Assembly: GCA_020445605.1 (NCBI GenBank)
Contig: JAGRGH010000051.1
Coordinates: forward strand, 1 to 64,000
Direction of reading: 5' to 3'
Source: Chromatiales bacterium
GTDB lineage: Bacteria > Pseudomonadota > Gammaproteobacteria > JAGRGH01
DNA: 64,000 nucleotides
Positions 20,954-61,515 of this stretch are shown here, piece by piece (within the stretch, counting starts at the first letter, position 1; every line of letters starts with the position of its first letter). The notes under the pieces were generated by a model. The model did not search any database. It was not told the origin of the DNA and was given only the letters and a program-made list of their open reading frames with translations. The translations under genes were made by a program, and so were the position numbers.

Positions 20954-21279
20954 GGTTCTCCTCGTCAAGGTCGTGAAGGGGGTCAGGCCGCGTTCCAGCA
21001 AAGGCCGGCCAACAGTTCGAGCCAGAGGCGCCGAAGATCACCCCGCCCGGCGCGGGCCGGCACGCAGCTGCCGCCAGCGGAAACGGCCTTTGCAAAGATC
21101 GGGGGTTGCATGTCGGGTTCTCCGAGGTTGCCTGTATGGGATGTCTCGAGCCGGCAGTCCGTCTCGCTGGTGAACAGGCTAGATCAACCCGGGACTCCTC
21201 TAAACTCGCAAATCCGTAGCAACCAGCTACACATTCCGTAGTAACCTGATTTGGATTCCGGACCCGTGGGAGCGAAAAA
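20954..21279. other. Divergent intergenic region between mddA and the HxlR regulator, 326 bp
   Basis: No gene is supported. It should hold the promoters of both divergent genes. The only clear structure is the repeat pair at 21213-21246, listed separately. The HxlR gene is preceded by GGGAG 7 nt before its GTG start. Confidence 0.5.
21213..21246. promoter_or_regulatory. Candidate operator for the HxlR regulator
   Basis: TCCGTAGCAACC (21213-21224) and TCCGTAGTAACC (21235-21246) match at 11 of 12 positions and are spaced 22 bp apart, two helical turns. The first copy overlaps a perfect inverted repeat GTAGC-AACCA-GCTAC (21216-21230). HxlR-family dimers often bind such GTA...TAC sites, frequently in tandem. 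The location, 34 bp before the regulator start and between divergent genes, suggests autoregulation and control of mddA. Binding itself is inference. Confidence 0.55.
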
Positions 21280-46659: not shown

Positions 46660-47745
46660 ATGATGCGACGGAACGCGCGGACCGTCGTGGCAACGGCACT
46701 GGCGCTGACAATTACGGCGCATGCCGCCGAACTGGACGGCACGTCCTGGCAACTGGTGAAGATCACGTCCATGGACGACCGCGTGTTCGACCCGGACGAC
46801 CCCGCGCGCTACACGCTGACACTGGATGCAGACGGTACCGCGCGCATGCTCGCCGACTGCAACCGCGGATTCGGCCCGTGGACGTCGGCGTCAGCCGAGC
46901 AGCTTCAGTTTGGCCCGGTCACATCGACCCGCGCCCTGTGTCCCCAGGCTTCCCTGTCAGAGAAGTACCTTGCGCAGTTCGAGTGGGTACGCAGCTACGT
47001 GCTGACCGACGGGCACCTGTTCCTCGCGACCATGGCCGATGGCGCGATCATTGAATTCTCACCACTCGGTGTGCCGGCGCCCGCTGCCACGGTGCTCGGC
47101 GAGGCGCTCGATTCGGCGGCTGCCGAAGAGATTCAGGCCACGATCCTCGCCCGGCTGTTCGATCGCTATGCCATGGAGCAGGGTCTCGACGCGCAGCCGC
47201 TGGAGATTGACACGCTGGTTGCTGACATCCAGCGCGACATGACCGAAAAGGGCATGACGGCGGGTGCCGACCTGACACCGGACGAACCCGCCGAGGTGGA
47301 TGTGATGCGCCGGAACATGGCGCAGGCACTGATTCGCCAGTGGAAAATCAATCGTTCGCTGTACGGGCGCTACGGCGGTCGCATCATCTACCAGCAGTTC
47401 GGCCCGGAACCCATCGATGCCTTTCGGCGCTTTCTGATGGAGCGCGAAGCGAACGGTGCGTTCGCGATCAACGATCCGGCTGTGGCGGCGCGGTTCTGGG
47501 AATACTTCACGGATGATTCAAAACACGAGATCGTGCCGGCGGGCAGTCCGGATGATGCGGATGCATTTTCGGTTCCGCCATGGCGGCAGCTCGGTAGCCG
47601 CCCGAAAAACCCAGGCTTCCATCAGCGCCGTCGAAGTTCATACGCCGCCGGCGTGAATGAGTTCGTAGTAGAGCTTCTCGAGCTCGGCTTTGTGCTGCGT
47701 CTCTTCGTTCGCAAGAAACTCGAACACCCGGCGCAGCTCGTCTGA
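46660..47745 (+). CDS. Exported META (HslJ-like) domain protein with an additional C-terminal domain
   Basis: Protein of 361 residues. Signal peptide about 1-22. Residues 23-135 are a META/HslJ domain (LDGTSWQLVKITSMDDRVF, YTLTLDADGTARMLADCNRG, STRALCPQASLSEKYL). Residues about 145-300 form a second, mainly helical domain containing IIYQQFGPEPIDAFRRFL and FWEYFTDDSKHEI. The last 36 residues are antisense to the end of the ferritin-like gene (108 bp overlap) and rich in basic and hydrophobic residues unlike the rest, so the native C-terminus is probably shorter and a recent frameshift or stop loss near 47550-47640 is possible. Confidence 0.7.
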   Translation: MMRRNARTVVATALALTITAHAAELDGTSWQLVKITSMDDRVFDPDDPARYTLTLDADGTARMLADCNRGFGPWTSASAEQLQFGPVTSTRALCPQASLSEKYLAQFEWVRSYVLTDGHLFLATMADGAIIEFSPLGVPAPAATVLGEALDSAAAEEIQATILARLFDRYAMEQGLDAQPLEIDTLVADIQRDMTEKGMTAGADLTPDEPAEVDVMRRNMAQALIRQWKINRSLYGRYGGRIIYQQFGPEPIDAFRRFLMEREANGAFAINDPAVAARFWEYFTDDSKHEIVPAGSPDDADAFSVPPWRQLGSRPKNPGFHQRRRSSYAAGVNEFVVELLELGFVLRLFVRKKLEHPAQLV

Positions 47746-48141
47746 CGGGCTTACCTCGGCCAGCGCGCGGTACTGTTCCATGGCCGCGTGCTCGCGGCCC
47801 AGCGCGTACTGCAGCACGGCCTGATCGTCCGGGGCATCGCCGAGGTCCGGCAGCTGGATGCAGTCGGAGAACCGCGCGTCACTGGCGGGACGCGCCAGTG
47901 CTTCGTCCATGTGCGCCATGGCATCGACCCGCCCGGCGAGTTCCGAAAACAGCTCGAAGTGCGTCTGTTCTTCGGCCGCCAGTTCATCGACCAGCCAGCG
48001 GATGCGCTTGCTGACGCGCGGCGCCAGATCGCGATAGAAATCCCGCGCCGTGCGTTCGAATTCGGTCGCGACCGTCAGCGCCTCGCGCAGCGTCGTCGTG
48101 GCCTCAAGACGTGCGCGCCCGCTTTGGTGTCCCTCGGTCAT
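47638..48141 (-). CDS. Ferritin-like (rubrerythrin-type) di-iron protein
   Basis: Protein of 167 residues with the four-helix di-iron pattern: Glu in ATEFERTARDFY, ExxH in LAAEEQTHFELF, Glu in GREHAAMEQYRAL, and ExxH in ANEETQHKAELEK. No rubredoxin tail. Members detoxify peroxide or store/handle iron. The ATG overlaps the upstream oxidoreductase stop by 4 nt, so it is the last gene of the long minus-strand operon, consistent with protecting oxygen-sensitive iron-sulfur enzymes. That role is inference. Confidence 0.85.
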   Translation of the reverse strand: MTEGHQSGRARLEATTTLREALTVATEFERTARDFYRDLAPRVSKRIRWLVDELAAEEQTHFELFSELAGRVDAMAHMDEALARPASDARFSDCIQLPDLGDAPDDQAVLQYALGREHAAMEQYRALAEVSPSDELRRVFEFLANEETQHKAELEKLYYELIHAGGV

Positions 48142-49967
48142 GTCACCAGCTCCGCGGTCTCAAAGGCGGCGTGGATCGCGCTCGCGACCGTGTGACCATT
48201 CGCGACGGCACTGACGACATCCGGTCCGCGCACCGCATCGCCGGCGGCCCACAGCCATGGCTCCGAGGTGCGCAGATTCGCGTCCACACGCAGGCGCCCG
48301 CGATCCCACTCCAGTTGTTCGGTCAGTTCCGCACCGAGCAGCGACCAGTCGCTCATCTGGCCGATGGCCTCGACAATCAACGTACCCGGATGGATGCGTT
48401 CGTCGTCGGAATCGTAACTCGGCGCGAAGCGCCCGTTCGCATCGAAGATCGAACGCACGGCCCACGTCTTCAGCCCCACGGCGCGGCCGTCTCCAGCGAC
48501 GATCTCCTGCGGTCCGCGCGCGGGAAGATACTCAATGCCCTCCTCAACCGCCTCGCGCAGCTCCTCGGGATCGGCCAACAGATGCGCGCGATCTTCCAGT
48601 GCCGTGATGGTGACGGCACCGCGACCGTAGCGCTGGAGCTGGACGCGCACCAGCGAGCGCGCGATGTCCATCGCGACATTGCCGCCGCCGATGACGATCG
48701 CCTGCTCCGGCACCTCGATGGACTCGCCAGCGACGATGGCACGCAGCAGATCGATCGCGCGCGCGACACCGGGCAGATCGCTGCCGGGCACGCGCGTGGA
48801 ACGTCCGAGTTGCAGACCCAGCGCGAGCACGACCGCATCGTAGTCGGCTTTGAGCGAATCGAACGTGATATCCGTGCCGACACGCATGTTGCAGCGAATC
48901 TCCACGCCGAGCGATTCGACGACCGCGACGTCGCGATCGAGCATGGGCTGCGGCAGCCGGTAATCCGGGATGCCCCAGCGCGGCATGCCGCCGGCCAGCG
49001 GCTGCGCCTCGAAGACCGTCACGGCGTGCCCCTTGCGCGCAAGGTCGAACGCAGTGCTGAGACCCGCGGGACCGGCGCCAACGATCGCCACCCGGCGGCC
49101 GCTGGCCTTCGTGACACGGCCCTGCTTCGCGATGGCCTGCACGCGCTCGGGGCTGACCTGATCCATGGCATAGCGCTTCAGCCAGCGGATCGCGATCGGC
49201 TCTCCGCGATGTCCGACCGAACACGCCGTCTCGCAGCGATGCGTGCATACCCGTCCGCAGGTGTGCGCGAACGGATTGGTCTTGTAGATCTCGGCGACGG
49301 CCGCTTCGGCGTCACCACGCCAGATCGCGCGGATGTATTCCGGTGCGTGCATGTGCGTCGGGCAGGCGTCGAAACACATACCGCACTGCACGCATCGCGA
49401 CGCCTCGATCAGCGCCTGGTCATGCGTGAAGCCGGCGACGATTTCATCGAATCCAGTTGCCCGTTCATCGGCTGCCAGCTCATTCATGGGCTGGCGCTTG
49501 TGATCGATCAGATCGGATTCGCCGTCCTTCGACCAGCCGCGCTCAAACACCCTGCCATGGATGCCTTTGGAATCGGGCAGGATGAAATAGCTGCCGAGTT
49601 CGTCGTCGCGACAGACATGCACATACTCGCGCGACAGCGAGATCGAGCCGGTCGGACAGACATCCACGCACAGCGCGCACCAGCAGCAGCGGCCGTAGTC
49701 GATGGCCGGGCGCAGGTTGCGCACGCCACGCGCGGGGTCGTCTGTCAGCGCGGGGATCTGCACCATGCTGATCGCGGCGTTGTCACAGACCTTCTGGCAG
49801 GTCGAGCAGCCGATGCAGGCCTCCCAGTCGTTGACATGAAAACCGCGGTAGCGCTCGCTCGCCGGGCGCGGCCCGAGCGGTTCGGTCACCGGTCGCCGGC
49901 CGAGAAACTTCAGGTTCGTCAGCGGCGCGAGCAGGCTGCCGCGCGCCTGCGGATCAATTCGCTTCAC
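48138..49967 (-). CDS. NuoI-like ferredoxin subunit fused to a GltD-like NAD(P)H/FAD oxidoreductase (MbxN-equivalent fusion)
   Basis: Protein of 609 residues. Residues about 45-110 carry two 4Fe-4S sites (Cys51, 54, 57, 61 and Cys94/95, 97, 100, 104), as in NuoI/MbxN. A third site is at Cys192, 195, 198, 202. Residues 237-249 (CGRVCTHRCETAC) begin the GltD module, with FAD motif VAIVGAGPAGLSTAFD (about 293-308) and NAD(P) motif VIGGGNVAMDIARSL. GltD-type modules pass electrons between NAD(P)H and iron-sulfur clusters (NfnB, DsrL, glutamate synthase). Position after nuoD-like equals that of nuoI/mbxN. It could link ferredoxin or the complex to NAD(P). Confidence 0.88.
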   Translation of the reverse strand: MKRIDPQARGSLLAPLTNLKFLGRRPVTEPLGPRPASERYRGFHVNDWEACIGCSTCQKVCDNAAISMVQIPALTDDPARGVRNLRPAIDYGRCCWCALCVDVCPTGSISLSREYVHVCRDDELGSYFILPDSKGIHGRVFERGWSKDGESDLIDHKRQPMNELAADERATGFDEIVAGFTHDQALIEASRCVQCGMCFDACPTHMHAPEYIRAIWRGDAEAAVAEIYKTNPFAHTCGRVCTHRCETACSVGHRGEPIAIRWLKRYAMDQVSPERVQAIAKQGRVTKASGRRVAIVGAGPAGLSTAFDLARKGHAVTVFEAQPLAGGMPRWGIPDYRLPQPMLDRDVAVVESLGVEIRCNMRVGTDITFDSLKADYDAVVLALGLQLGRSTRVPGSDLPGVARAIDLLRAIVAGESIEVPEQAIVIGGGNVAMDIARSLVRVQLQRYGRGAVTITALEDRAHLLADPEELREAVEEGIEYLPARGPQEIVAGDGRAVGLKTWAVRSIFDANGRFAPSYDSDDERIHPGTLIVEAIGQMSDWSLLGAELTEQLEWDRGRLRVDANLRTSEPWLWAAGDAVRGPDVVSAVANGHTVASAIHAAFETAELVT

Positions 49968-51106
49968 CGGTCGACCTCCGGCGGACAGGCATCCAGCGAG
50001 AACAGGATCTGTGCGACGTCTTCCAGTCGCGCACCGACCGCGAGCTGTTCGAGCACCTGCACGGCGTGGGTCTGCGACGGCCCGCGGATATGCGTGCGAT
50101 ACGGCCGTTCACCGCCGTTGGACACGACATACCAGCCCAGCTCACCCTTCGACGATTCGATGCGGATGTAGCATTCACCGGCCGGCACGTTCCAGGCGAG
50201 CGGGTTTGGAATCGGACAGCGGATCGTGCCCGGCATGCCGTCCAGTCGCCGCACGACCTGGCGAACGATGGAGATGCTTTCGGCGAGTTCCGAACGTCGC
50301 ACCAGCGTACGCGCCCAGCAGTCCCCGGCGGATTCGGTGGGGATGTCGAAGTCGAGCTGGTCATAGACCAGATACGGGTCGTCCCGGCGCACGTCGAACG
50401 CCAGGCCCGTTGCACGCAGGTTCGGGCCCGTCACGCCGAGCGCGAGGGCCTGCTCCTGGGTCAGCACCCCGATCCCGCTCGCCCGCTGGATGAACACCTG
50501 GTTTTCGAACAGCAGTGCGTCATAGTCCGGCAGCCGCGATTCGAGATAGTCCATGGTCTCGAGAATGCGCGCACCCAGACCCGGCGGCAGGTCGCGGCGC
50601 ACCCCGCCCGGGATGTTGTAGATGTGATAGACGCGCCCGCCGCACAGAATCTCGAACAGATCGAGGATCAGGTCGCGATCCGCCACACCCCAGAACGACG
50701 GCGTGTACATGCCAGTGGTCGCGGCATGTCCGCCGAAATAGAACAGATGGGCGGCGATGCGCGACAGTTCGAGTTGCAGCACGCGCAGCCACTTCGCGCG
50801 CTCGGGCACCTCCAGTCCGCACAGCTGCTCGACGGCCAGGCTGTAGGCGACCTCCATCGGCACGGGATCGGGCACGCAGATGCGCGGCGTGATCGCGAGG
50901 TTCTGGATCCACAGCCGGCCTTCCATGAGTTTTTCGAAACCGCGATGCAGGTAGCCGGCGTCGGCGTGCGCCCACTCGACCCGGTCGCCATGCAGTCGCA
51001 GGCGCAGCGCGTAGTTGCCCTCGATCCCCGGATGATTGGGGCCGATGTTGAGCTCGTACTCGTGGCTCGGCGGGTGCTGCTGAGGACGGTAGTTTTCGGG
51101 GCGCAT
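49964..51106 (-). CDS. NuoD/MbxL-like catalytic-core large subunit lacking the [NiFe] ligand set
   Basis: Protein of 380 residues of the complex I 49 kDa / group 4 hydrogenase large-subunit family: IGPNHPGIEGNYALRLRL, DAGYLHRGFEKLMEGR, FYFGGHAATTGMYTPSFWG, LFENQVFIQRASGIGVL. Where hydrogenases have RICGxC, this has RICVPD (Cys77, Asp80); where they have DPCxxC at the end, this has DACPPE (Cys374, Glu377). One cysteine of each pair is thus retained, so a [NiFe] site is not expected. Couples redox chemistry to the membrane arm. Starts 2 nt after the nuoC-like stop. Confidence 0.9.
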   Translation of the reverse strand: MRPENYRPQQHPPSHEYELNIGPNHPGIEGNYALRLRLHGDRVEWAHADAGYLHRGFEKLMEGRLWIQNLAITPRICVPDPVPMEVAYSLAVEQLCGLEVPERAKWLRVLQLELSRIAAHLFYFGGHAATTGMYTPSFWGVADRDLILDLFEILCGGRVYHIYNIPGGVRRDLPPGLGARILETMDYLESRLPDYDALLFENQVFIQRASGIGVLTQEQALALGVTGPNLRATGLAFDVRRDDPYLVYDQLDFDIPTESAGDCWARTLVRRSELAESISIVRQVVRRLDGMPGTIRCPIPNPLAWNVPAGECYIRIESSKGELGWYVVSNGGERPYRTHIRGPSQTHAVQVLEQLAVGARLEDVAQILFSLDACPPEVDR

Positions 51107-51108
51107 GA

Positions 51109-51696
51109 CTATCGCCTCGGCGTGCGGCCGGGCTTGCGGCTGAAACGCTGCTCGTCGGGACGGATGACGACCCCGCCGCCCTCGCGTTCAATGGACTCCA
51201 GCCAGTCCGGCCGGTAGTCCTGCCAGTCGAAGTGCTCGTTGACCCAGGCCTCGGCGTCGAAATCCTTGCGCATGGGCGGCGGGCCGTCCCACTCGGTCAG
51301 GATGAACCGCTCCATGTCCGGGCTGCCCTCGAAGTACACGCCATACATCTCATGGATGTCGCGCTCGTAAAAGGCCGCCGGCGTGTAGATGTCATAGACC
51401 GACACGTAGCGTCCGGGCGAGCGCGCAATCCGGGTGTGCGCCGAAACCAGCGCCCGCTGCTCATATGACCACAGGTGGTAGACCAGCTCGAACTCGCCGT
51501 CGTCGATCCAGTCCACGCAGGAAATGGCCGACAGATGCACGTATGAGGCGCGGCCCTTGAGCAGCGCGAGCAGGGTCGGCAGCGCATCGGAAGCGACGTC
51601 GACCCGCACCCGCCGCTCGTCACGGCGGCGCACATCGATGCCTTCGACCTCGTGCAGCAGGTTCGCGAGCCAGGGCGCGAGTTCGCCGGCGTTCAT
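51109..51696 (-). CDS. NuoC/MbxK-like subunit (30 kDa family)
   Basis: Protein of 195 residues. Core of the 30 kDa family: YVHLSAISCVDWIDDGEFEL, VYHLWSY, then AAFYERDIHEMYGVYFEGSP, equivalent to the RExxDxFG signature. It bridges the NuoD- and NuoB-like subunits in the peripheral arm. Overlaps the nuoB-like stop by 4 nt. Confidence 0.9.
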   Translation of the reverse strand: MNAGELAPWLANLLHEVEGIDVRRRDERRVRVDVASDALPTLLALLKGRASYVHLSAISCVDWIDDGEFELVYHLWSYEQRALVSAHTRIARSPGRYVSVYDIYTPAAFYERDIHEMYGVYFEGSPDMERFILTEWDGPPPMRKDFDAEAWVNEHFDWQDYRPDWLESIEREGGGVVIRPDEQRFSRKPGRTPRR

Positions 51697-52409
51697 GATT
51701 TCGAACGTTCCACGTCAGCAATATCGATCCGCATGCGCAGCGGCTCCAGCGGATGCTGGTGCTGTTCGAGCAGCGCGGTGTGTTCCCCAAGGGTTTCTGA
51801 TCCGAACAGCTGGTACTCGCGCGCCTCGCCGACGATGTCCGTGGGGGTCTGCCAGTTCGGGCCGAACAGACGCTGCTGGTGGCCGAGGTAGTGGTCGTAG
51901 CGACGGTAGTAGTCCTCCCAGCCGTTCGCACGCCCGTCACGGACGTCCCGCATCAGTTCACGCAGACCCTCGATCACGGCTTCCGGCCGCGGCATGCAGC
52001 CCGCGATATAGATGTCGACCGGCAGATAGTCGTTGAGCTTCTTGGCAGTCGCATAGCTCTGCCAGTACATGCCACCGTTGACCGTGCACGAACAGATGCC
52101 GATCACGTACTTCGGCGACGGCATCTGTTCATAAGTCAGGATCACGCGCTTGAGTGTCTTGACCGACACATAACCCGTGATCAGCAGGATGTCGGCCTGG
52201 CGCGGCGTGACCATCGGCTGGATGCCGAGGCGTTCCATGTCGAAGCGCGAGGTCATCGCCGGCGGCAGTTCGATCGCACCGCAACCGGTGCAGTAGTGCA
52301 GCAGAAACAGCGAACGGGAACGACAGAAGTCTACGAACTCGTCGAACACGTTCGCCAGCGGGTTGCTGCGCCCGCGACCGGCCTTGACCGGCACCGGAAA
52401 GTCGCTCAT
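51693..52409 (-). CDS. NuoB/MbxJ-like iron-sulfur subunit
   Basis: Protein of 238 residues from the ATG at 52409, overlapping the nuoH-like stop by 4 nt. Proximal-cluster cysteines: LHYCTGCGAIEL (Cys40, Cys43), GICSC (Cys106, Cys108) and AGCMPRPEAVIEGL (Cys138). The CxxC spacing is the hydrogenase/Mbh type; complex I NuoB has adjacent CC. The C-terminal 80 residues after the cluster fold are an extension of unknown role. Holds the 4Fe-4S cluster next to the active site. Confidence 0.9.
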   Translation of the reverse strand: MSDFPVPVKAGRGRSNPLANVFDEFVDFCRSRSLFLLHYCTGCGAIELPPAMTSRFDMERLGIQPMVTPRQADILLITGYVSVKTLKRVILTYEQMPSPKYVIGICSCTVNGGMYWQSYATAKKLNDYLPVDIYIAGCMPRPEAVIEGLRELMRDVRDGRANGWEDYYRRYDHYLGHQQRLFGPNWQTPTDIVGEAREYQLFGSETLGEHTALLEQHQHPLEPLRMRIDIADVERSKS

Positions 52410-53308
52410 CTCATCACCACCGCGAGTCCGACCAGCGCGATCAACGTCGGCCATTTCCACATCAGGCGCACCATGTCCTCGGTGCGATAGCGTGGGAACA
52501 CGAAGGCCACGCTCATCGGCACGGCCGCGACCACGAATATCTTCACGAGAAACGTGAACCAGTCCCCGCCACCGCCCAGGAACAGGCTCACATACAGCAC
52601 GCTGGCCGTGTAAAGCTGAAAGCACTGCATGACGAACAGGCCGCCGAGGTACTTGCCGCCCATCTCGACCATCGGCCCGGTGGCGATCTCGGCCGGCGCG
52701 ACATAGATCTCGAACGGCTGCTTGCCGAGCATGCCCTGCAATGTGAACAGCCCCGCGAACGCGAGGATCGGCATCTGCACCAGGCCCCAGCCTTGCAGGC
52801 CGCCCGCGCGCTGCGCCGCGATGATGTCGACGAGATTCGTCGTGCCGTAATGCCAGGCAACGGCAAACGCCACGATCACGAACGGAATGTCGTAGGCGAG
52901 CATCGCCGTCAGCGCGCGCGACACGCCAATCGAAGCGTTCGGGTTCGCGCACTGACCGGCGGCCAGCGCCAGACCCAGCGAGGGGATCATCGTCAGATAC
53001 AGCAGCACGATCAGGCCACCCTGTTCCGCGATGCCGTTCATGCCCGGCACCGGCAGCAGGGTTTCGGCGGCCACATAGCCCCCGATCGCGACGACGAGGC
53101 CAAGGTCGTGCAGCAGTCCGTGCGAGACCTGTGCACGCTTGCCGAACAGCTTCACCACGTCATAGAGCGGTTGCAGAAGCGGCGGTCCGACGCGACGCTG
53201 GATGCGCGCTGCGATCCTGCGCATGCACAGCAGCAGAAACAGCCCCGTGACGAACGCCACGAGCGGCATCAGCACAAGCTCGATGAACAGTTCCAGTCCG
53301 GTGGACAT
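52406..53308 (-). CDS. NuoH/MbxM-like membrane subunit
   Basis: Protein of 300 residues with about eight helices. Family signatures: RIAARIQRRVGPPLLQPLYD near the N-terminus (the conserved RxGP loop) and MLGKQPFEIYVAPAEIATGP. It anchors the peripheral arm and lies at the entry of the ion pathway. ATG at 53308, one base shared with the upstream stop (TGATG). Confidence 0.92.
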   Translation of the reverse strand: MSTGLELFIELVLMPLVAFVTGLFLLLCMRRIAARIQRRVGPPLLQPLYDVVKLFGKRAQVSHGLLHDLGLVVAIGGYVAAETLLPVPGMNGIAEQGGLIVLLYLTMIPSLGLALAAGQCANPNASIGVSRALTAMLAYDIPFVIVAFAVAWHYGTTNLVDIIAAQRAGGLQGWGLVQMPILAFAGLFTLQGMLGKQPFEIYVAPAEIATGPMVEMGGKYLGGLFVMQCFQLYTASVLYVSLFLGGGGDWFTFLVKIFVVAAVPMSVAFVFPRYRTEDMVRLMWKWPTLIALVGLAVVMR

Positions 53309-55164
53309 CAGACCACCGCCCAGGCGAGCGCAAGCACGGCGAACGCCAGCCCGTACAGCAGCGGTTGTGCGTTGCGATACCAGCCGCTCATGGCGCGCGC
53401 CACTGTGCCAGTGACCGCCACAACGACCGATTCCAGCCATGCGAAGGTTCCGCGATACCAGGGCCGGATGTGATGCATGAGGCCCGCATAGAAATCCGCG
53501 CTGTACTGATAGCGCACCTGCGCGGTCAGAAAATGCCCGCCCGCGTAATTGTCCAGCGGATGCACACGCCGCGGGCGCGAACCGAACAGATAAAACACCC
53601 CGGCGCCAACGATCAGTCCATAGCCCAGCACCGCGCCGACCCAGAGCATGTTCAGACTGCCGTGCGGCGAATCGATCCCGCCGAGATGGTGAGCGAGGAC
53701 CGGCAGCCCGAGGGCGGCCTGCGCCTGCGCCACCCAGTCGAGCACCAGCCCCGGCGCAATGCCGGTCACGAGCACGACGACGGCAAGCAGCAGCATCGGC
53801 ACGAGCATGGCCAGCGGCGCCTCGCGCACCGTGTCATGTTCAAGCCGCAGCTGGCCGAGGAACAGGTTGTGCAGCAGCTTGAACACGGAAAGGATCGTGC
53901 CGAGCGTGCCGATCACGGCCGCCACGAACAACAGCGGCTGACCCTGTTCGATCAGCGACCGATAGATCAGCCATTTCGAAACGAAGCCGTTCATCGGCGG
54001 CAGGCCGGCCAGGCCGATGATGCCCACCAGCACGACCAGAAAGGTCAGCGGCATGCGCACGACGAGTCCGCCCAGTCGGTTCAGGTCCGCGGTACCCGCA
54101 CGCAGCATCACCGCGAACACGCCCATGAACAGCGCGGCCTGATAGGTGGCGTGGTTGAACACGTGCATCAGTCCACCGGCCGTACCGAGTGCATCGCCGA
54201 GCACGAGCCCGAGCAGCATGTAGCCGCCCTGCCCGATGCCATGCCAGGCCAGCAGCAGGCGGGCGTCGTTCTGCCGCAATGCGGTGAAGGTCGGCAGGAT
54301 GATCGTCGCGGCCGCCACCCAGGCGAACAGATCGAACAGATCGAAGCCGCCGAATATCGTCAGGCCAGCACGCAAGGCATCCAGTCCGATGAACTGCATC
54401 GGCACCACGGCCATCGCGAACAGGCCCATGCGCGAGGAAATCGCGCCGAGAAACGCCGCACCCGGACCCGGCGCATGGGCGTAGGCGCCGGCCTGCCAGA
54501 GATGCAGCGGCAGCAATCCCATCTTTGCGCCGAACCCGGCGACGAACAGCAGCACCAGTGCGAACCGTCCCCCGGTCGACAACGCGGCCCACGCGCTCGG
54601 CAATGCGGAAAAGCCCAGATCGCCGCCAGCGCTCCAGACCAGCGCGATGCCGGCGAGGATCGCCATCGCACCCGCGATGGCATAGGTCAGATAGCGCAGT
54701 GCGGCCGCCGGGGCCGGTCCACCACCGATCGCCATGAACAGGAAGCTCGCCCAGCTGACGAACTCCCAGCCGACGAACAGCGTGAGCAGATCGGCGCTGG
54801 CCACCAGCATCAGCATCGCAAGCACATTCAGCGCCAGTGCGAACTGTACCGGGTGCATCTCGCGACCTTTGCCGATGTAGAGCCCGCCCGCATACAGTGC
54901 GGCGACGAACGCGGCGCCGAGCGTGATCGCCGCGAAGAACCAGCCCAGTGCGTCCAGCCGCCAGCCGAGCGTCTGCCCGAATACCTCGACGCGCAGCGCG
55001 GATGCCAGCGCCTCGCCATGCAGTGCGCCGGTCGCAACCAGCAGCGCGAACTGGGCCGCGAAGGCGGCGGCCGCGATCCAGGCGGTGATCCGGTGCCGAC
55101 CAGCGACGGCCGTGAACACGACCGTGGCCGCGGCCAGCGCGAACAGCCCGTCGAGCGCGTTCAC
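53308..55164 (-). CDS. Proton-conducting antiporter-like subunit 2 (MbxH'/HyfB/NuoL-like)
   Basis: Protein of 618 residues with a GTG start at 55164 overlapping the previous stop by 4 nt; a longer upstream frame is antisense-type noise over the neighbour. About 16 helices. Antiporter motifs: LLTLFVGWEFVSWASFLFM (the TM5-type glutamate in GWE), AGFGAKMGLLPLHLWQAGAY (TM7-type lysine) and FNHATYQAALFMGVFAVML (HxxxK/xA-type late motif). The TM8 segment AHAPGPGAAFLGA differs from the common PTPVSALLH. Second of two adjacent antiporter-like genes, as in MBS. Confidence 0.9.
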   Translation of the reverse strand: MNALDGLFALAAATVVFTAVAGRHRITAWIAAAAFAAQFALLVATGALHGEALASALRVEVFGQTLGWRLDALGWFFAAITLGAAFVAALYAGGLYIGKGREMHPVQFALALNVLAMLMLVASADLLTLFVGWEFVSWASFLFMAIGGGPAPAAALRYLTYAIAGAMAILAGIALVWSAGGDLGFSALPSAWAALSTGGRFALVLLFVAGFGAKMGLLPLHLWQAGAYAHAPGPGAAFLGAISSRMGLFAMAVVPMQFIGLDALRAGLTIFGGFDLFDLFAWVAAATIILPTFTALRQNDARLLLAWHGIGQGGYMLLGLVLGDALGTAGGLMHVFNHATYQAALFMGVFAVMLRAGTADLNRLGGLVVRMPLTFLVVLVGIIGLAGLPPMNGFVSKWLIYRSLIEQGQPLLFVAAVIGTLGTILSVFKLLHNLFLGQLRLEHDTVREAPLAMLVPMLLLAVVVLVTGIAPGLVLDWVAQAQAALGLPVLAHHLGGIDSPHGSLNMLWVGAVLGYGLIVGAGVFYLFGSRPRRVHPLDNYAGGHFLTAQVRYQYSADFYAGLMHHIRPWYRGTFAWLESVVVAVTGTVARAMSGWYRNAQPLLYGLAFAVLALAWAVV

Positions 55165-56615
55165 AATCGGCCCCGACTTTGATGACCGAGCACGTTCGCG
55201 ATGTATCCGCCGCGATCGGCGGCCTGCTGCGCAAGCCTGCCCAGGCGCTCGCCGATCGGTGCGGCCGCAACCGTGCCGACCAGCAGAACGCCACCGAGCA
55301 GTGCCGCCGGAAACGCACGAAACCGCCCCGGTGTCGCGGCCTGCGGTGGGTCGGCGCGATACATCGCCAGGATCAGACGAAACAGGTAGTTGGCCTCGAC
55401 GACCGTCACGGCGAGCAGAACGAACGCCGCCACAAGCGCAACTGTACTGCCGGCATCCATGAGCCCGCGCAGCACGAACAGCTTGGCCCAGAAACCCGGC
55501 AGCGGCGGCAACCCGACCAGCGACAGCGCGAACAGAACGAACAACGCGCCCGCGAGCGGCGAGCGTCGCGCCACGCCAGCCAGTTGGTCCAGTGCGCCGG
55601 ACCATTCGCGCGACAGATCGAACAGCGCGCTCTTGACGACCAGATGATGCAGCGCCGCGATCACGCCCGCGAGCACGCCCGCCGCGCCCGAGATCGAGAA
55701 CGCGACACAGACGAGCCCGAGCTGCGCGATCGACGAACCTGCCAGCATGCGCGGGAAATCGCGCGCATGCCATGCCGCGAGTTCGCCGCTCGCCAGTCCC
55801 AGCACGCCGACCGCGAGCAACAACAGCGCCGCCTCCGGCTGCGTGAACACGAGCAGCAGCAGACGCACGATCACGAGCAGCGCCAGCTTCGACACCAGGC
55901 CCGCGAGCAGCGCCGAGACGCGCGCAGGTGCGGTCGCATAGACCTCCGGCACCCAGCTGTTCACCGGGAAGACCTCGGCCTTTACGCCGAAGCCGACCAG
56001 CAGGCACGCGAACGCCGCGAGTCCGCGCGCGTCGTGCAGGACCGTCGGTGCGCGCTGGGCGAGATGCGCGAGATTCAGCGTGCCGGCCGCGTTGTAGACG
56101 AGCGCGATGCCAACCAGCGCGACCAGCGAACCGAGTGCGCTCAACAGCAGGTAGCGCAGTGCGGCGATTTCGGAACGCGCGTTGTCGTTGACGGCCGCAA
56201 GGCCAAACGATGCAACGGCCGCGAGTTCGTAGAACACATACAGCGTGAACAGGTCGCCGGCCAGCGCCATCCCCGCGCCCGCGGCCGCCAGCAACAGCCA
56301 GAGACTGCGCTCGCGCACATCGGCCGTGTCGGCCCACGGCCAGAACAGCAGGCTCAGGAGCGGGACCGCGAGCGCAAACACCAGCGCGAGCGCATCGCCG
56401 ACCAGCGCAATTCCAAGCGGTGCCGCGAAGCCACCGAGCGCCACGACCATCGTGGTCCCGCCTGCCCCGGCCGCCGCACCAAGCAGGATCGCTACGACTG
56501 CGGTGAGCAGCAGGGGGCCGAGCCAGCTGGCGACCGGCTTCGAGACCCGCGCAAGCGGACGCAAGGCAAACGCGCCCGCCAATGGCAATGCGATCGCCAG
56601 CGGCAGCGTGCTCAC
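55161..56615 (-). CDS. Proton-conducting antiporter-like subunit 1 (MrpD/NuoN-like, MbxH)
   Basis: Protein of 484 residues with about 14 helices. LFTLYVFYELAAVASFGLAA carries the TM5-type glutamate, and GFGVKAEVFPVNSWVPEVYA the TM7-type lysine. ATAPARVSALLAGLVSKLAL is the TM8 segment with its lysine, and ALHHLVVKSALFDLSRE the later one. This is the closest of the two to MrpD. It overlaps both neighbours by 4 nt. Confidence 0.92.
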   Translation of the reverse strand: MSTLPLAIALPLAGAFALRPLARVSKPVASWLGPLLLTAVVAILLGAAAGAGGTTMVVALGGFAAPLGIALVGDALALVFALAVPLLSLLFWPWADTADVRERSLWLLLAAAGAGMALAGDLFTLYVFYELAAVASFGLAAVNDNARSEIAALRYLLLSALGSLVALVGIALVYNAAGTLNLAHLAQRAPTVLHDARGLAAFACLLVGFGVKAEVFPVNSWVPEVYATAPARVSALLAGLVSKLALLVIVRLLLLVFTQPEAALLLLAVGVLGLASGELAAWHARDFPRMLAGSSIAQLGLVCVAFSISGAAGVLAGVIAALHHLVVKSALFDLSREWSGALDQLAGVARRSPLAGALFVLFALSLVGLPPLPGFWAKLFVLRGLMDAGSTVALVAAFVLLAVTVVEANYLFRLILAMYRADPPQAATPGRFRAFPAALLGGVLLVGTVAAAPIGERLGRLAQQAADRGGYIANVLGHQSRGRL

Positions 56616-57046
56616 GGGTCTCTCACCAGATCATCGCGACGTGGCGCGTCGGCACTGGCGGCCGGTCCGAGCCCGGCCGCGCGATCAATCCCGCGTTCGA
56701 GCCGCTCGCGCAGCGCGCGCATCGACAGCGTCCCGACCCGCGCGTGCACGCGCACGACCAGCGCAATCGCGAGCGCCTGCACGCCCACACCGATGACGAT
56801 TGCGGTCAGGACCAGCGCCTGAGGAACCGGGTCGACCATCGGCAGACTGCCGCCCGTGACGATCGGCGCAACGGCTTGCGGCCGGTAGCCGGCCAGCACC
56901 AGCAGCAGATTCGCGCCGGCCTCGGCAATCACCAGCCCGAGCAGGACCCGCAGCAGGTGGTCGGACAGCACCAGTCCGGCAATGCCGATGCCGATCAGAC
57001 CGATCGCGCCGACATACATCACGACGACCAGATCCGGCGCACTCAT
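56612..57046 (-). CDS. MrpC/NuoK-like subunit (MbxG)
   Basis: Protein of 144 residues from the ATG at 57046. Three helices (about 8-28, 31-52, 72-98) with GLIGIGIAGLVLSDHLLRVL and LGLVIAEAGANLLLV, the NuoK-type glutamate in the second helix. A C-terminal tail of about 40 hydrophilic residues (RERLERGIDRAAG) is longer than usual for MrpC. 4 nt overlaps on both sides. Confidence 0.87.
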   Translation of the reverse strand: MSAPDLVVVMYVGAIGLIGIGIAGLVLSDHLLRVLLGLVIAEAGANLLLVLAGYRPQAVAPIVTGGSLPMVDPVPQALVLTAIVIGVGVQALAIALVVRVHARVGTLSMRALRERLERGIDRAAGLGPAASADAPRRDDLVRDP

Positions 57047-57741
57047 GCGGAGGCGCCCGCCCCGGCCGCGAGGTCCGCCATGAGCCCCGCGAGCTCGGCA
57101 CCGACCTTCACGCCGACCGCGCACGACAGCAGCGGCAGGCTGCCGGCGGATACCAGCGCGCCGGTCTGCCCCGTGCCGAACAGCGGCGCGAGGAATTCCC
57201 GATCCAGCGCGAATGCGCCGACCGCGACGCCGACGAAGGCCAGCCCGGCGAGGCCCTCGAGCCAGGCAATCGCCGCATGCGCGAGCGGGCGATCCGCGCG
57301 CGCAAGCACGCCGAGAAAAAACGCCGCCGCGAGAATCACGCCACCCTGAAAGCCGCCACCGGGCGTCAGATGTCCATGCGCGACGATGAACAGCCCGACG
57401 ACCGCGAGAAACGGGAACAGCACATCGGCGCCCGTGCGCAGCACGAAACCGGCACGCGCGTGGTGGCCGCCGGGGCCGTTCGCCGCACGCCCCCGACTCA
57501 GCACGAGACCGACGGCGGTTGCCGCCGCGAACAGGATCGAGACCTCGCCGAGCGTGTCGAGCCCGCGATACGCGAACAGCACCGCCGTGACGACATTGGT
57601 GCCGCCGACGACCGCCGGCCCCTGCGCAGCGATGGGCCCGCCAACCGTCGTCAGCTGGCCCGGCGTGCTCAGACGCGCACCGAGCGCAAACAGCAGCGCG
57701 ACGAGTCCGAGCGAAAAGATCAGCGAAGCGAACCTATGCAT
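57043..57741 (-). CDS. MrpB-type subunit (MnhB domain, MbxF-like)
   Basis: Protein of 232 residues from the ATG at 57741. The N-terminal 90 residues include a GLDTLGEVSILFAAATAVGL helix like the C-terminal end of MrpA (MbhE type). The remaining 140 hold the MnhB signature GHLTPGGGFQGGVILAAAFF with four helices. So it appears to combine the MbhE- and MbhF-like parts in one polypeptide. Overlaps the DUF4040 gene by 8 nt. Confidence 0.87.
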   Translation of the reverse strand: MHRFASLIFSLGLVALLFALGARLSTPGQLTTVGGPIAAQGPAVVGGTNVVTAVLFAYRGLDTLGEVSILFAAATAVGLVLSRGRAANGPGGHHARAGFVLRTGADVLFPFLAVVGLFIVAHGHLTPGGGFQGGVILAAAFFLGVLARADRPLAHAAIAWLEGLAGLAFVGVAVGAFALDREFLAPLFGTGQTGALVSAGSLPLLSCAVGVKVGAELAGLMADLAAGAGASA

Positions 57742-58003
57742 CGCGATGCCCGCTGTCGCTGTCGACACGCGCGAGGCCCAGGCGTTTCAATCCGAGCGCC
57801 AGAACGATCGCGCTGAGCCCCGCGCCCACCGCCGCCTCGGTCATCGCGACATCCGGCGCACGCAGCAGCGCAAACAGCACGGCGACCGCCAGCGAGACGA
57901 CCGACACACTCGCGACGGCCGCAACGAAATTGCGCACGAACAGCGTCACGAGTGCGGCGACCAGCGCCATGACGACGAGCACCAGCGCAATCCAGCCCTC
58001 CAT
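57734..58003 (-). CDS. DUF4040 / MbhD-like hydrogen-carbon membrane subunit
   Basis: Protein of 89 residues. The ATG at 58003 is preferred because it shares one base with the upstream stop (TGATG), in line with the coupling pattern of this operon; an ATG at 58018 is possible. Three helices; signature APDVAMTEAAVGAGLSAIVL, as in MbhD and the C-terminal part of MrpA. Part of the sodium/proton-translocating module. Confidence 0.85.
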   Translation of the reverse strand: MEGWIALVLVVMALVAALVTLFVRNFVAAVASVSVVSLAVAVLFALLRAPDVAMTEAAVGAGLSAIVLALGLKRLGLARVDSDSGHRDA

Positions 58004-58290
58004 CAGGGCGCCCGCCATGGCGCCACGCCGCGCCGGAACAGCGCGCGCGCGATCGTCGACGAGCCGACCGGATTGGTCAGCAGCAGAAACAGCCCGATCG
58101 CGAGCAGTCGCGGCCACCAGTCCGGCCGCAGCAACGCCGTGCCGGCAAGCAGCGCGAGCGCCCCCAGCGTCGCGGCCTTGGTGCCGGCCTGGATGCGGTT
58201 GTAGACATCGGGCATGCGCAACAGGCCCAGCGCAGCAAGAAACGCAAACACCGCACCCAGCAAGAGCAGGACGTCGCCGGCAATCCTCAC
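58003..58290 (-). CDS. MrpG-like subunit (MbxC)
   Basis: Protein of 95 residues with a GTG start at 58290, overlapping the upstream stop by 4 nt (GTGA). Signature GLLRMPDVYNRIQAGTKAAT, with three helices, typical of MnhG/MrpG. Confidence 0.9.
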   Translation of the reverse strand: MRIAGDVLLLLGAVFAFLAALGLLRMPDVYNRIQAGTKAATLGALALLAGTALLRPDWWPRLLAIGLFLLLTNPVGSSTIARALFRRGVAPWRAP

Positions 58291-58553
58291 GATGCATTGC
58301 CCTCCAGCGCGTGCGCGAGCGCGACGACACCGATGAACGCGAGCACGCCGTAGACCAGCGCGACATCGAGCACAAACACGCTGTCGATGACGATCGCGAG
58401 CGGGGCGAGTGCCGCGGTGAGGATCACGGCCAGCGTGTCCGCGGCAACGATGCGGTCGCCGGCGCCCGGTCCGCGCACCAGCCGGACCAGCGCCAGCAGC
58501 ACCGCCAGGCCCAGCAGCGCCAATGCCGTCAGCTCGGCAAGATTGAGGTTCAC
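58287..58553 (-). CDS. MrpF-like subunit (MbxB)
   Basis: Protein of 88 residues with three helices. RLVRGPGAGDRIVAADTLAV is the MnhF/MrpF signature. 4 nt overlap with MrpE-like upstream. Confidence 0.9.
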   Translation of the reverse strand: MNLNLAELTALALLGLAVLLALVRLVRGPGAGDRIVAADTLAVILTAALAPLAIVIDSVFVLDVALVYGVLAFIGVVALAHALEGNAS

Positions 58554-59092
58554 TGCAGGAATCCGGCCAGATGCCGTTCGAAGTCCGCGGCGATCCGCTC
58601 GGTTGCGGCCTGCATGTCCAGGCCCGGCGGCGCATCGATCCAGTGTATGCGCAGGCGCGAACCTTCCATGTCAACCGTCAGCGTGCCGGGCGTCAGCGTG
58701 ATGGCGTTGGCGAGCAGCAGGCGCGCGAGCGGCGAATGCAGCGCCGTTTCGATTTCGACGATTGCGGGATCAAGCGGCAACGACGGCGACAACACACGCC
58801 GCGCAACATCTAGATTGGCGCGTACGAGCGCCAGCATGAACCGGCCGACGAACGCCAGCAGTGCAATCGGCATGCCGGGCGTCGCGCGCAGTCCCGCGAA
58901 TGCGGCGAGCCGTTCACCGGACAGCGCCGTGACGAGCAGCGCCGCGAGCGCACCCGCGACGAGTTCATCGACGCGCCACTCGCCCGCCAGCAGCATCCAC
59001 AGCAGCAGGCACAGGAAAAACACCGCGACACGGCGCGCGAGCGGCACACGCGACTCACGCTCAGCGCGCAACACGGGGGCGGAATCCGTCAC
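58550..59092 (-). CDS. MrpE-like subunit (MbxA)
   Basis: Protein of 180 residues. Two N-terminal helices (about 20-60) precede the soluble MnhE part: LALVRANLDVARRVLSPSLP, LLANAITLTPGTLTVDMEGS and RLRIHWIDAP. First of the thirteen complex genes in transcription order. 4 nt overlap with the kinase-like gene. Confidence 0.9.
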   Translation of the reverse strand: MTDSAPVLRAERESRVPLARRVAVFFLCLLLWMLLAGEWRVDELVAGALAALLVTALSGERLAAFAGLRATPGMPIALLAFVGRFMLALVRANLDVARRVLSPSLPLDPAIVEIETALHSPLARLLLANAITLTPGTLTVDMEGSRLRIHWIDAPPGLDMQAATERIAADFERHLAGFLQ

Positions 59093-59817
59093 GGCAGGAC
59101 GTAGTTCGTCGGTGCGCTCACGCTGCGTTCAACATAGGCCGCGCGTGCGGCAAGCACGAGCTTGACCACGGACTGTTCGTCGAAATGATCGGTGTTCACG
59201 GTGAAGTCGTAGGCGGCCGGTTCGTTGATGTCGCGGCCGAACAGCTCCTGCACGAACTTCGCACGCTCCGCGTCGATGCGCTCGGTCATGGAACGCGCCT
59301 GCTGGGCCTCGAGTCCGTGACGCCCGGCGATGCGTGCATAGCGCATCGCGGCGGACCCCGTCACACGCAGACGCAGCACCGGCCGGCCTCCGATCGGACG
59401 ACCGCCGAGAATGAAGTTCGCCCCGCGGCCGATGATCACGCCGCCGGTCGTCGCGATGCCAAGCACGGCGTTGATCAAGGCGCGTCGATAACGGCTGGAA
59501 TAGGTGCCGCGACCGCTGATGACCGCCTGCAACCACTCGGTACGGCTGCTCGCGACGTGTTCGTCGAGCCGCTCGAGCATCTCGGTGCTGACGTCGGTTT
59601 CGCGGCCCATGAGTTCGATCAGCTCACGATCGAAGAACGGCACCTCGAGCGCCTCGGCCAGCAAGTGACCGATGTGCTCGCCGCCCGACCCGCAGTCGCG
59701 CGACAGCGTCACGACGCAGCCCGGACATTTCGCCGTGCGGGCCCGGCCATCCATGCCGGCGAGGAATTCGGATTTCAGGATCGCGTCGAGCGCGCGGTGT
59801 ACATCGATGCGCGACAT
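59089..59817 (-). CDS. Cytidylate kinase-like family protein
   Basis: Protein of 242 residues of the cytidylate_kin2 group. VVTLSRDCGSGGEHIGHLLA is the P-loop region (SGGxxI rather than GxGK), followed by VPFFDRELIELMG and later VIIGRGANFILGG and RVTGSAAMRYARI. Such proteins bind a nucleotide and may be kinases of unknown substrate; they are not the essential Cmk. Overlaps the MrpE-like start by 4 nt and starts 3 nt after the GltD-like gene, between the POR and membrane modules. Its role there is unknown. Confidence 0.85.
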   Translation of the reverse strand: MSRIDVHRALDAILKSEFLAGMDGRARTAKCPGCVVTLSRDCGSGGEHIGHLLAEALEVPFFDRELIELMGRETDVSTEMLERLDEHVASSRTEWLQAVISGRGTYSSRYRRALINAVLGIATTGGVIIGRGANFILGGRPIGGRPVLRLRVTGSAAMRYARIAGRHGLEAQQARSMTERIDAERAKFVQELFGRDINEPAAYDFTVNTDHFDEQSVVKLVLAARAAYVERSVSAPTNYVLP

Positions 59818-59820
59818 GCG

Positions 59821-61515
59821 TCAGTCCTCAGGCGTCATCTGGATATAGCCGCAGGGGCATTCATGCGCGCACAGCCCGCAGCCCTTGCAATAGTCGTAGT
59901 CGAAAACATAGCCGCCCGCCCCGGCATCCGCAGCGGCGGTCTTGAGCACGGCGCTGTCCGGGCACAGGGTCCAGCAGTTGTCGCAGGCGAAGCATTCGCC
60001 GCAGGAAAAACAGCGCTGCGCCTCGGCCTGGGCCTCGCGGCGATCGATGCCGAGTTCGATCTCCACGCCCACACCGCGGTCGGCAACCGGCACCACGCGC
60101 TCCGCCGGGCGCTGCCCGGCCTCGTAATAGTTCAGGTTCAGCGCCTCGAGCGGTATCGGCTCCAACGCCGGCTCAGCCACATGGGCCCGCCCCTGAAGTT
60201 CGGCCCAGAGTGCCTCAGCGGCCCGGCGACCGTCGCCAATGGCCGCGCTGACCGTGCCATTGACGCCGAGCGCATCACCGCCCGCGAACACGCGCCTGCG
60301 ACCGGCCAGCCGCCCGTCGTCAGCAGTCGCCAGATACCCGCGCGCATTCAGCATCGCGGCGAAGCCGTCCGGGTCCACGCGCTGACCGACCGCCGGAATG
60401 ACCTGGTCGACCTCGAGCACCGATTCGGTGCCCTCGAACCCGACGCGGTGCAGCCGCCCGTCGCTGCCACGCAGCTTCTTCATGTGCACGATCTCTACCC
60501 CGACCACGCGCTCGCCGCGCAGGATCAGCCGCTGCACGCCGCGGTGCTCGTGGATGCGCACGCCCTCTTCGAGCGCCTGCCTGATCTCGCGCAGGATCGC
60601 CGGCATCGCATCCTCGGGCGCGACCCCGGGCCCCGGAATCGCCTTGTGCGAGATCACCCGCACCTCGGCCACACCGGCGGCCTTCAGTACCCGCGCGAGA
60701 TCGATCGCCGTGTTGCCCGCACCGACCACCGCGGCACTGCGCCAGGTCGGCGCGGCACCGACGGTCAGCAGTTCCTCGAGCAGTTCCAGCCCGTTGTGCA
60801 GATCGGCCGGGGTGGCGCCCTGCACGTTCCACTCCGCGGCGTGATGCGTGCCGGGCGCGACGAACACGCCGTCGAACTGCGCGCGGAGTTCATCGAGCGA
60901 AAAGTGCCGGCCCAGCTGCTGGCCAGTGGCAAGCTCGATCCCGGTGCCGAGCAGGCGATCGATCTCGGCGTCCAGCACATCGCGCGCGAGGCGGTATGGC
61001 GGAATCGCCGTGCGCAACAGTCCGCCCGTGACGGCGAGCCGCTCGAAAACCGTCACGGCCGCGCCGAGCCGACGCAGATGCCAGGCCGCCGAAAGACCGG
61101 CCGGACCCGCGCCGACAACGGCGACGCGCGGCGTATCGGCCGCTAGTGGCGCGCAGGGGTAGGCCCAGCCCGCTGCGATGGCCTGCTCGCCGAGCTGGCG
61201 TTCGACGTGATGGATCGCGATCGGTGCGTCGAACCGGCCACGATTGCAGGCGCTCTCGCAGGGATGGTGACAGACCCGCCCGGTGATCGCCGGCAGCGGG
61301 TTGACCCGGACCAGGGTCTCCCACGCCCCCTGCGCATCGCCGGCATCGATGCGCGCCAACCAGGCCTGCGCGTCCTCGCCGGCCGGACAGGCCGCATGGC
61401 AGGGCGCTGCGCGATGCCGGTGCACGGGTCGTTCGTTGCGCCAGTCACCGGTCTTGAACGCGAGCGAGCTGGCCGGCGTCGCCCAGCCGCCGCGATGGAT
61501 GCGCGTCACGCCCAT
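59821..61515 (-). CDS. GltD-like NAD(P)H/FAD oxidoreductase with C-terminal 4Fe-4S ferredoxin domain (POR-associated)
   Basis: Protein of 564 residues; ATG at 61515 chosen since GGAGG lies 6 nt upstream (GTG 61509 is an alternative). N-terminal cluster domain with Cys39, Cys43, Cys82, Cys86, Cys90, then FAD motif VAVVGAGPAGLSAAWHL (about 131-147) and a second nucleotide motif AAVVGAGNTAIDLARVL. The C-terminus has FSCGECFACDNC plus CKGCGLCAHECPCGY, a POR-delta-like 2[4Fe-4S] pair. It probably accepts electrons from the oxidoreductase encoded next and exchanges them with NAD(P) or a soluble ferredoxin. Confidence 0.88.
   Translation of the reverse strand: MGVTRIHRGGWATPASSLAFKTGDWRNERPVHRHRAAPCHAACPAGEDAQAWLARIDAGDAQGAWETLVRVNPLPAITGRVCHHPCESACNRGRFDAPIAIHHVERQLGEQAIAAGWAYPCAPLAADTPRVAVVGAGPAGLSAAWHLRRLGAAVTVFERLAVTGGLLRTAIPPYRLARDVLDAEIDRLLGTGIELATGQQLGRHFSLDELRAQFDGVFVAPGTHHAAEWNVQGATPADLHNGLELLEELLTVGAAPTWRSAAVVGAGNTAIDLARVLKAAGVAEVRVISHKAIPGPGVAPEDAMPAILREIRQALEEGVRIHEHRGVQRLILRGERVVGVEIVHMKKLRGSDGRLHRVGFEGTESVLEVDQVIPAVGQRVDPDGFAAMLNARGYLATADDGRLAGRRRVFAGGDALGVNGTVSAAIGDGRRAAEALWAELQGRAHVAEPALEPIPLEALNLNYYEAGQRPAERVVPVADRGVGVEIELGIDRREAQAEAQRCFSCGECFACDNCWTLCPDSAVLKTAAADAGAGGYVFDYDYCKGCGLCAHECPCGYIQMTPED

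Follow-up and report, generated by a model that had tools for sequence, protein, structure and literature searches.

The closest described relative of the gene cluster reported here is the MBS complex of the archaeon Pyrococcus furiosus, in which the proximal [4Fe-4S] cluster has three cysteine ligands (MbsJ C28, C93, and C123) and has been shown to cleave polysulfide, the two leftover [NiFe] cysteines (MbsL C85 and C385) are dispensable for activity, and H38 and Y87, the quinone residues of complex I, are absent (PMC7684303). Related complexes occur in bacteria, and two studies report that elemental sulfur raises mbx/mbs expression in Thermotoga maritima (PMC9431562) and Zhurongbacter 3DAC (PMC10356935). 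The present study examined a window of 64,000 nucleotides, the whole stretch of DNA that was analysed (positions 1 to 64,000 of contig JAGRGH010000051.1 in the Chromatiales bacterium assembly GCA_020445605.1), which carries on its minus strand 13 packed genes, mbxA (from 59092) to mbxN (to 48138), for a complex of this kind. From its sequence we propose, with a probability of about 0.5, that the complex would serve as an NAD(H):polysulfide oxidoreductase that works in both directions and is coupled to ion movement, most likely in the respiration of stored sulfur without oxygen or nitrate.

Open reading frame calling, Pfam searches, and start-codon analysis confirmed the 13 consecutive genes in the order, strand, and span given by an earlier, sequence-only reading of the window, and all 13 products scored above the cut-offs of their own Pfam models. 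The series begins with mbxA (MrpE-like; 58550-59092; MNHE, 128 bits), mbxB (MrpF-like; 58287-58553; MrpF_PhaF, 49 bits), mbxC (MrpG-like; 58003-58290; PhaG_MnhG_YufB, 86 bits), mbxD (MbhD/DUF4040; 57734-58003; MbhD, 60 bits), mbxE (57043-57741), which like MbsE is a single protein joining an N-terminal MbhE domain (31 bits) to MnhB/MrpB (MnhB, 74 bits), and mbxG (MrpC/NuoK-like; 56612-57046; Oxidored_q2, 72 bits). It continues with the two antiporter-like subunits mbxH (55161-56615) and mbxH' (53308-55164), both matching Proton_antipo_M, the NuoH-like membrane anchor mbxM (52406-53308; NADHdh), the NuoB-like mbxJ of the proximal cluster (51693-52409; Oxidored_q6), the NuoC-like mbxK (51109-51696; Complex1_30kDa, 97 bits), the NuoD-like mbxL, the former [NiFe] subunit (49964-51106; Complex1_49kDa), and mbxN (48138-49967; Fer4, Fer4_20, and Pyr_redox_2). 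Adjoining genes overlap by 1-8 bp, with the exception of mbxK and mbxL, which are separated by 2 bp. The 13 genes account for every subunit of the Pyrococcus MBS/Mbx complex in the order A B C D E G H H' M J K L N (subunit list from PMC7684303), and they combine, as MBS/Mbx does, two antiporter-like subunits with an Mrp-like Na+ module and an MbhE domain fused to MnhB. A survey of the operon in other genomes, which the sequence-only reading had proposed, found this order kept at loci of many phyla, so it is not a product of chance. The operon limits of 48138 and 59092 that had been given hold for the genes enclosed, but the end at 48138 does not stand, since a 14th gene (47638-48141) and an upstream gene run extend beyond them. 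Rfam, tRNA, and promoter and terminator scans returned nothing useful.

Among all PDB entries, P. furiosus MBS (6u8y) was the top solved-structure match of the whole L, J, M, H, and H' subunits: MbxL scored 395 bits with MbsL (6u8y_L) vs 275 with Nqo4 and 120 with MbhL, MbxM 196 bits with MbsM (6u8y_M) vs 62 with NdhA and 53 with MbhM, MbxJ 217 bits with MbsJ (6u8y_J), and MbxH and MbxH' 185 bits each with MbsH (6u8y_H) and MbsH' (6u8y_X). The best solved match of the NuoI part of MbxN was likewise the MBS N subunit (6u8y_N; 82 bits, residues 9-131). In a tree of 59 NuoD-superfamily sequences (371 columns, LG+C20), all Mbx L subunits, MbsL included, formed one clade (100/100) and complex I another (99/91), with the group-4 hydrogenases apart; gammaproteobacterial sequences of the main type were monophyletic (100/100), the spirochaetes came next (100/99), and a Hydrothermota row mislabelled as a hydrogenase (L074) sat inside Mbx. 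For J and M, quick trees separated Mbx, together with MBS, from complex I by branches with 100% support. The earlier assignment to the Mbx/MBS type in the archaeal subunit order, distinct from complex I, is thus borne out by the best matches, the gene order, and the trees of the NuoD-, NuoB-, and NuoH-like subunits (L, J, and M) that had been suggested as its check, and the complex almost certainly belongs to MBS/Mbx.

The residues around the proximal cluster agree with this placement. MbxJ keeps the equivalents of MbsJ C25, C28, C93, and C123, with a loop that is equally short and aligns without gaps. In about 100 rows of Mbx J, the positions C28, C93, and C123 hardly vary, and Bacteroidales-type and some other Mbx have Gly at C25, which fits the three-ligand cluster model; MbxJ of the gammaproteobacterial clade has no tandem cysteine. 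MbxL keeps the equivalents of MbsL C85 and C385, two of the four [NiFe] cysteines, and has E and V in place of the Nqo4 quinone residues H38 and Y87. Along the ion path, MbxH retains the equivalents of MbsH E138, K250, and K393, MbxH' those of MbsH' E128, K217, H336, and K399, and MbxM those of MbsM E203 and E211. A second, divergent Mbx type was observed in three gammaproteobacterial genomes (L117, L118, and L119), with an MbxL identity of 46-48% and zero or one of the two MbsL cysteine equivalents; in one of them (L118:5000-11000, G263), MbxJ has a complex-I-like tandem CC. This type may occupy an intermediate position, with MBS on one side and complex I on the other.

MbxN is a protein of 609 amino acids that had been described as NuoI-like and as a fused electron-entry subunit of the complex. 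Its domains and structural model support both descriptions, although more precisely it joins a NuoI-like dicluster domain to a complete NfnL/GltD module (Fer4_20 plus the FAD/NAD domain Pyr_redox_2). In an AlphaFold2 model (mean predicted local distance difference test score, pLDDT, of 84; N-terminal 39 residues of low confidence), residues ~155-605 adopt the NfnL fold, with a template-modelling (TM) score by target length of 0.89 and 33% identity vs the P. furiosus NfnI large subunit. The fusion is widespread among bacteria, in many phyla, and N is short in P. furiosus, in the DHVE2 archaea with an identified N, and at one Clostridiales locus. In NfnL, the second Rossmann strand is followed by a YRR stretch that binds the NADPH phosphate. 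YRRR is kept in MbxN of Bacteroidales, most Thermotogota, WOR-3, and Aminicenantes, and gives way to several inserted residues and an acidic LED/LET/LES-type stretch in the gammaproteobacterial clade, the spirochaetes, UBA12178, and one planctomycete. Because the NADP-type YRRR has given way to LED, we infer that MbxN of the gammaproteobacterial/spirochaete clade prefers NADH. The MbxN rows inspected also carry a CG(R/K)VC-type sequence at the position of NfnL TGRVC, and the extra cysteine may alter a cluster ligand. The MbxN of L119 (L119:17670-19500, G217) looks chimeric, with a cluster half resembling the divergent type and an NAD half bearing the motif of the gammaproteobacterial clade, which suggests recombination or a hybrid assembly.

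The 14th gene (47638-48141, minus strand), which shares 4 bp with mbxN at the stop of the latter, codes for a rubrerythrin-like diiron protein of 167 amino acids (Pfam Rubrerythrin, 38 bits; cut-off 22.8), in which Pfam found no rubredoxin domain along the whole length, making it erythrin-like. Its diiron ligands E29, E58, H61, E117, E147, and H150 were invariant in 13 sequences, as in a ferritin-like domain. A homologue follows mbxN at 30/30 named gammaproteobacterial loci with a complete mbxN and downstream sequence, at ten main-clade loci derived from genomes, and at two of the three divergent-type loci. In five spirochaetes, MbxN itself bears a C-terminal extension of ~146-169 amino acids that aligned to the rubrerythrin in a profile comparison (probability 95%, E 2e-8, 129 collinear columns) and was modelled as a ferritin-like bundle (pLDDT 84) from which the metal ligands are absent; its best PDB match was 1vjx (probability 1.00, TM 0.73), at a Foldseek E of only 8e-3. 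As the partner is fused to MbxN in the spirochaetes and strictly adjacent to its gene in the gammaproteobacterial clade, we argue that the rubrerythrin-like protein would sit on MbxN, where it probably clears O2 or peroxide near the exposed cluster.

The named hosts of mbx in the Gammaproteobacteria include Thiohalocapsa, Lamprocystis, Parasulfuritortus, Thiodiazotropha, Sedimenticola, Thiolapillus, vent tubeworm symbionts, Parabeggiatoa, and Thiomargarita, and most are known sulfur oxidisers or symbionts thereof. In a sample of 369 genomes of the class, 16 contained mbx (MbxL at E ≤ 1e-80; three of them of the divergent type) and 117 contained dsrA. All 16 mbx-bearing genomes, which span 15 families, carry dsrA (hypergeometric p = 5e-9 by genome and ~1e-7 by family, deeper relatedness being ignored). 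RuBisCO was present in 176 of the 369 genomes and in 13 of the 16 (p = 0.006); among the RuBisCO-bearing genomes, mbx occurred in 13/100 with dsrA vs 0/76 without (p = 4e-4), and among the dsrA-bearing genomes there was no added link between mbx and RuBisCO (p = 0.82). Autotrophy was therefore rejected as the correlate of mbx, RuBisCO being weakly enriched and adding nothing beyond dsr. The genome of the window contains dsrA, two RuBisCO genes, genes for complex I, and a [NiFe] hydrogenase that lies next to Isp-like genes, and no reaction-centre gene was found in it; we infer that the host is a chemolithoautotrophic, non-phototrophic sulfur oxidiser. The large subunit of this hydrogenase, group-1-like and located elsewhere, is the only NuoD-superfamily match in the genome besides complex I; in the same genome, at L106:8196-13522 (C49), a [NiFe] hydrogenase large subunit (PF00374, 796 bits) is accompanied by an Isp2/HdrD-like Fe-S protein, HupE, and then a DUF1538 pair. 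At Thiomargarita/Parabeggiatoa-type loci (L051-L060), mbxL, accompanied by J and K where these were seen, was not followed by mbxN, and the operon looks scattered in that lineage. A Thiotrichaceae-like mbxL was also seen on a contig titled Dichelobacter nodosus from a metagenome-assembled genome labelled SulCav (L052), a title that is probably misassigned.

These features can be assembled into a candidate mechanism. The membrane arm would consist of the Mrp-like Na+/H+ module (A-E and G) and the two proton-pumping antiporter-like subunits H and H', and the peripheral arm (J, K, L, and N on the anchor M) would pass electrons to the proximal cluster, which, with three cysteines only and at the end of a cavity, would cleave polysulfide as in archaeal MBS. 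Electrons would enter at MbxN, where the NfnL/GltD module would exchange them with NAD(H) and the NuoI domain possibly also with ferredoxin, and MbxM would couple their flow to H, H', and the Na+ module. The textbook potentials of NADH (~-320 mV) and polysulfide (~-260 mV) span little energy; the complex should therefore work near equilibrium, and its reversal could yield NADH from sulfide. In keeping with sulfur reduction, a study of Beggiatoaceae describes respiration of stored sulfur in anoxia with stored carbon or H2 (PMC4959497). Sulfane chemistry is a probable property of the complex, and net sulfur reduction as its main physiological direction stands at even odds or slightly less. More tentatively still, the gammaproteobacterial/spirochaete clade might represent an NADH-specific, rubrerythrin-guarded, 14-subunit MBS that links stored sulfur to NADH and an ion gradient in sulfur-storing Gammaproteobacteria, serving anoxic sulfur respiration and, in reverse, quinone-free production of NADH from sulfide.

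Several points weigh against sulfur respiration as the role of the complex. Electron transfer from NADH to polysulfide yields too little for a machine with two pumps unless ferredoxin also donates, and some residues of the charge axis are changed (MbsH H330 to A, MbsM E104 to M and E193 to Q). Only 16 of the 117 dsr-bearing genomes contain mbx, which is therefore not general to sulfur oxidisers. The next genes upstream of mbxA (porABC, ppsA, and a class I aldolase gene) look gluconeogenic, and in the Riftia symbiont, Mbx is co-expressed with the reductive tricarboxylic acid cycle and not with a sulfur-reduction programme (PMC11636981). The last two points, with the neighbouring genes taken as a fit to carbon assimilation, also speak for a complex that works mainly in reverse, the ion gradient driving electrons from sulfide or polysulfide uphill to NAD+ and the NADH serving CO2 fixation with quinone bypassed. 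This reading, which we regard as unlikely but the foremost of the alternatives, would suit a non-phototrophic host with dsrA and two RuBisCO genes, the NADH-type module of MbxN, and a gap between sulfide and NAD+ that by textbook potentials is small and hence requires little driving force. It is countered by the missing tie to RuBisCO within dsr-bearing genomes, by the ordinary complex I through which the host can drive reverse electron flow, and by the family experiments found, which deal with polysulfide or sulfur reduction (PMC7684303, PMC9431562, PMC10356935).

An improbable further alternative is an Rnf-analogous ferredoxin:NAD+ oxidoreductase, in which ferredoxin reduced by the Por enzyme would feed the NuoI clusters and then NAD+ at the fused module, leaving the sulfur site idle. 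The Por genes in the same run, the two donor-type domains in one subunit, and early work that proposed a ferredoxin:NADP+ activity for Mbx (as cited in PMC6349859) speak for it, but on this reading the J-L-M arm would have no electron acceptor although the residues of the catalytic cluster are invariant, and the Por linkage was not seen at the other gammaproteobacterial loci examined, whereas the link to dsr is shared. Transfer from NADH to quinone by a variant of complex I is very improbable: the superfamily, the NuoB, NuoC, NuoD, and NuoH homologues, and the NAD module are common to both, yet the trees, the replacement of H38 and Y87, the lack of a tandem cysteine in MbxJ, and the presence of two and not three antiporter subunits led us to reject membership in complex I, for which the genome has separate genes. 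Least credible is a degraded group-4 [NiFe] hydrogenase, despite the common ancestry and the different, group-1-like hydrogenase of the genome, with which nickel maturation is probably present; each [NiFe] motif of MbxL has one cysteine, close homologues also lack two of the four, the score with MbhL is far below that with MbsL, and the L tree places MbxL outside group 4, so that the earlier statement that the large subunit is not a hydrogenase stands. Neither of the two results that the sequence-only reading had named as refuting it came about.

Upstream of mbxA the same-strand run continues with a cytidylate-kinase-like gene (59089-59817; Cytidylate_kin2, 131 bits), which shares 4 bp with mbxA, a GltD-like NAD(P) subunit with a C-terminal PorD ferredoxin domain (59821-61509; NCBIfam PRK12771, 498 bits, and PorD, 62-63 bits), porB for the thiamine pyrophosphate subunit of a 2-oxoacid oxidoreductase (61506-62498; PorB, 393 bits), and porA for its alpha subunit (62498-63670; PorA_Arch, 401 bits), all on the minus strand, followed by porC, ppsA (phosphoenolpyruvate synthase), and the gene of a class I fructose-bisphosphate aldolase, all three partly or entirely beyond the end of the window. 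The 2-oxoacid oxidoreductase had been placed in the same operon; it does share the gene run here, but no such genes were found near mbx at the other gammaproteobacterial loci examined (upstream cover of ~1.5 kb in most named loci and several kb in some genome-derived loci), and it was rejected as a conserved partner. The fusion of the PorD ferredoxin domain to a GltD-like protein beside porABC gives the 2-oxoacid oxidoreductase a pyridine-nucleotide subunit of its own, and the cytidylate-kinase-like gene, a kinase family within an energy operon, was not seen next to mbx at other loci. Outer-membrane efflux, phosphonate-binding, and GGDEF/EAL genes were also rejected as conserved neighbours, being limited to a few, mainly Thiodiazotropha-type, loci. 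At one Thiodiazotropha locus (L036:11157-12300), tandem near-identical genes of the 23S_rRNA_IVP family (PF05635) lie between mbxL and mbxN. Elsewhere in the window are an alpha-glucan phosphorylase gene (38615-41239), for which the Thermococcales maltodextrin phosphorylase model ranks second among NCBIfam matches, and a gene for the methanethiol S-methyltransferase MddA, of dimethyl sulfide formation, above its NCBIfam cut-off (20189-21001).

The passages of PMC4959497 on anoxic reduction of stored sulfur in Beggiatoaceae name no enzyme, and the co-occurrence of mbx with dsr, the NADH module predicted for MbxN, and its rubrerythrin-like partner together provide a concrete candidate for this step that can be deleted in relatives such as Parasulfuritortus. 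If the proposal is true, sulfane cleavage at a three-cysteine cluster, held to be ancient and studied in archaea, extends to bacteria of oxic-anoxic boundaries, and the locus adds points to the evolutionary series of hydrogenase, MBS, and complex I.

Among known systems, P. furiosus MBS shares with this locus the 13 subunits in order, the two antiporter-like subunits, the MbhE-MnhB fusion, the three-cysteine proximal cluster, the two remaining [NiFe] cysteines, and the absence of the quinone residues. It differs in that MbsN has 208 amino acids, no flavin module, and ferredoxin as donor, and the locus described here adds the rubrerythrin-like gene and a sulfur-oxidiser context. T. maritima MBX and Zhurongbacter 3DAC MBS are likewise 13-subunit complexes, found in bacteria and induced by elemental sulfur, but their hosts are sulfur-reducing fermenters, the donor given in their publications is ferredoxin, and most Thermotogota MbxN examined keep the NADP-type motif. 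The 'putative Mrp-Mbx complex' of the Riftia symbiont, also a gammaproteobacterial sulfur oxidiser, is named in one annotation line of PMC11636981, whose main-text passages contained no mention of the MbxN fusion, its cofactor motif, or the rubrerythrin partner; the Lamellibrachia and Escarpia symbionts (L030 and L035) have the same gene set, with MbxL 77-78% identical. These three published systems, and the fused MbxN of many bacterial phyla, run against the remark in the sequence-only reading that no described bacterial system of this composition was known. At the level of single proteins, MbxN shares its fold with the NfnL/GltD/dihydropyrimidine dehydrogenase domain and differs from it by the NuoI fusion, CGRVC, and, in the gammaproteobacterial/spirochaete clade, the change from YRRR to LED, whereas the 14th-gene product shares the ferritin-like four-helix form and six diiron ligands with rubrerythrin and erythrin but is tied to mbxN and, in its spirochaete version, fused and ligand-less. 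In the open-access literature, subscription papers not being covered, neither the rubrerythrin-like partner of mbxN nor the cofactor switch nor the link to dsr was found described. The type of complex is thus already known, and what is new here is the rubrerythrin-like 14th gene, the cofactor switch from YRRR to LED, and the co-occurrence of mbx with dsr.

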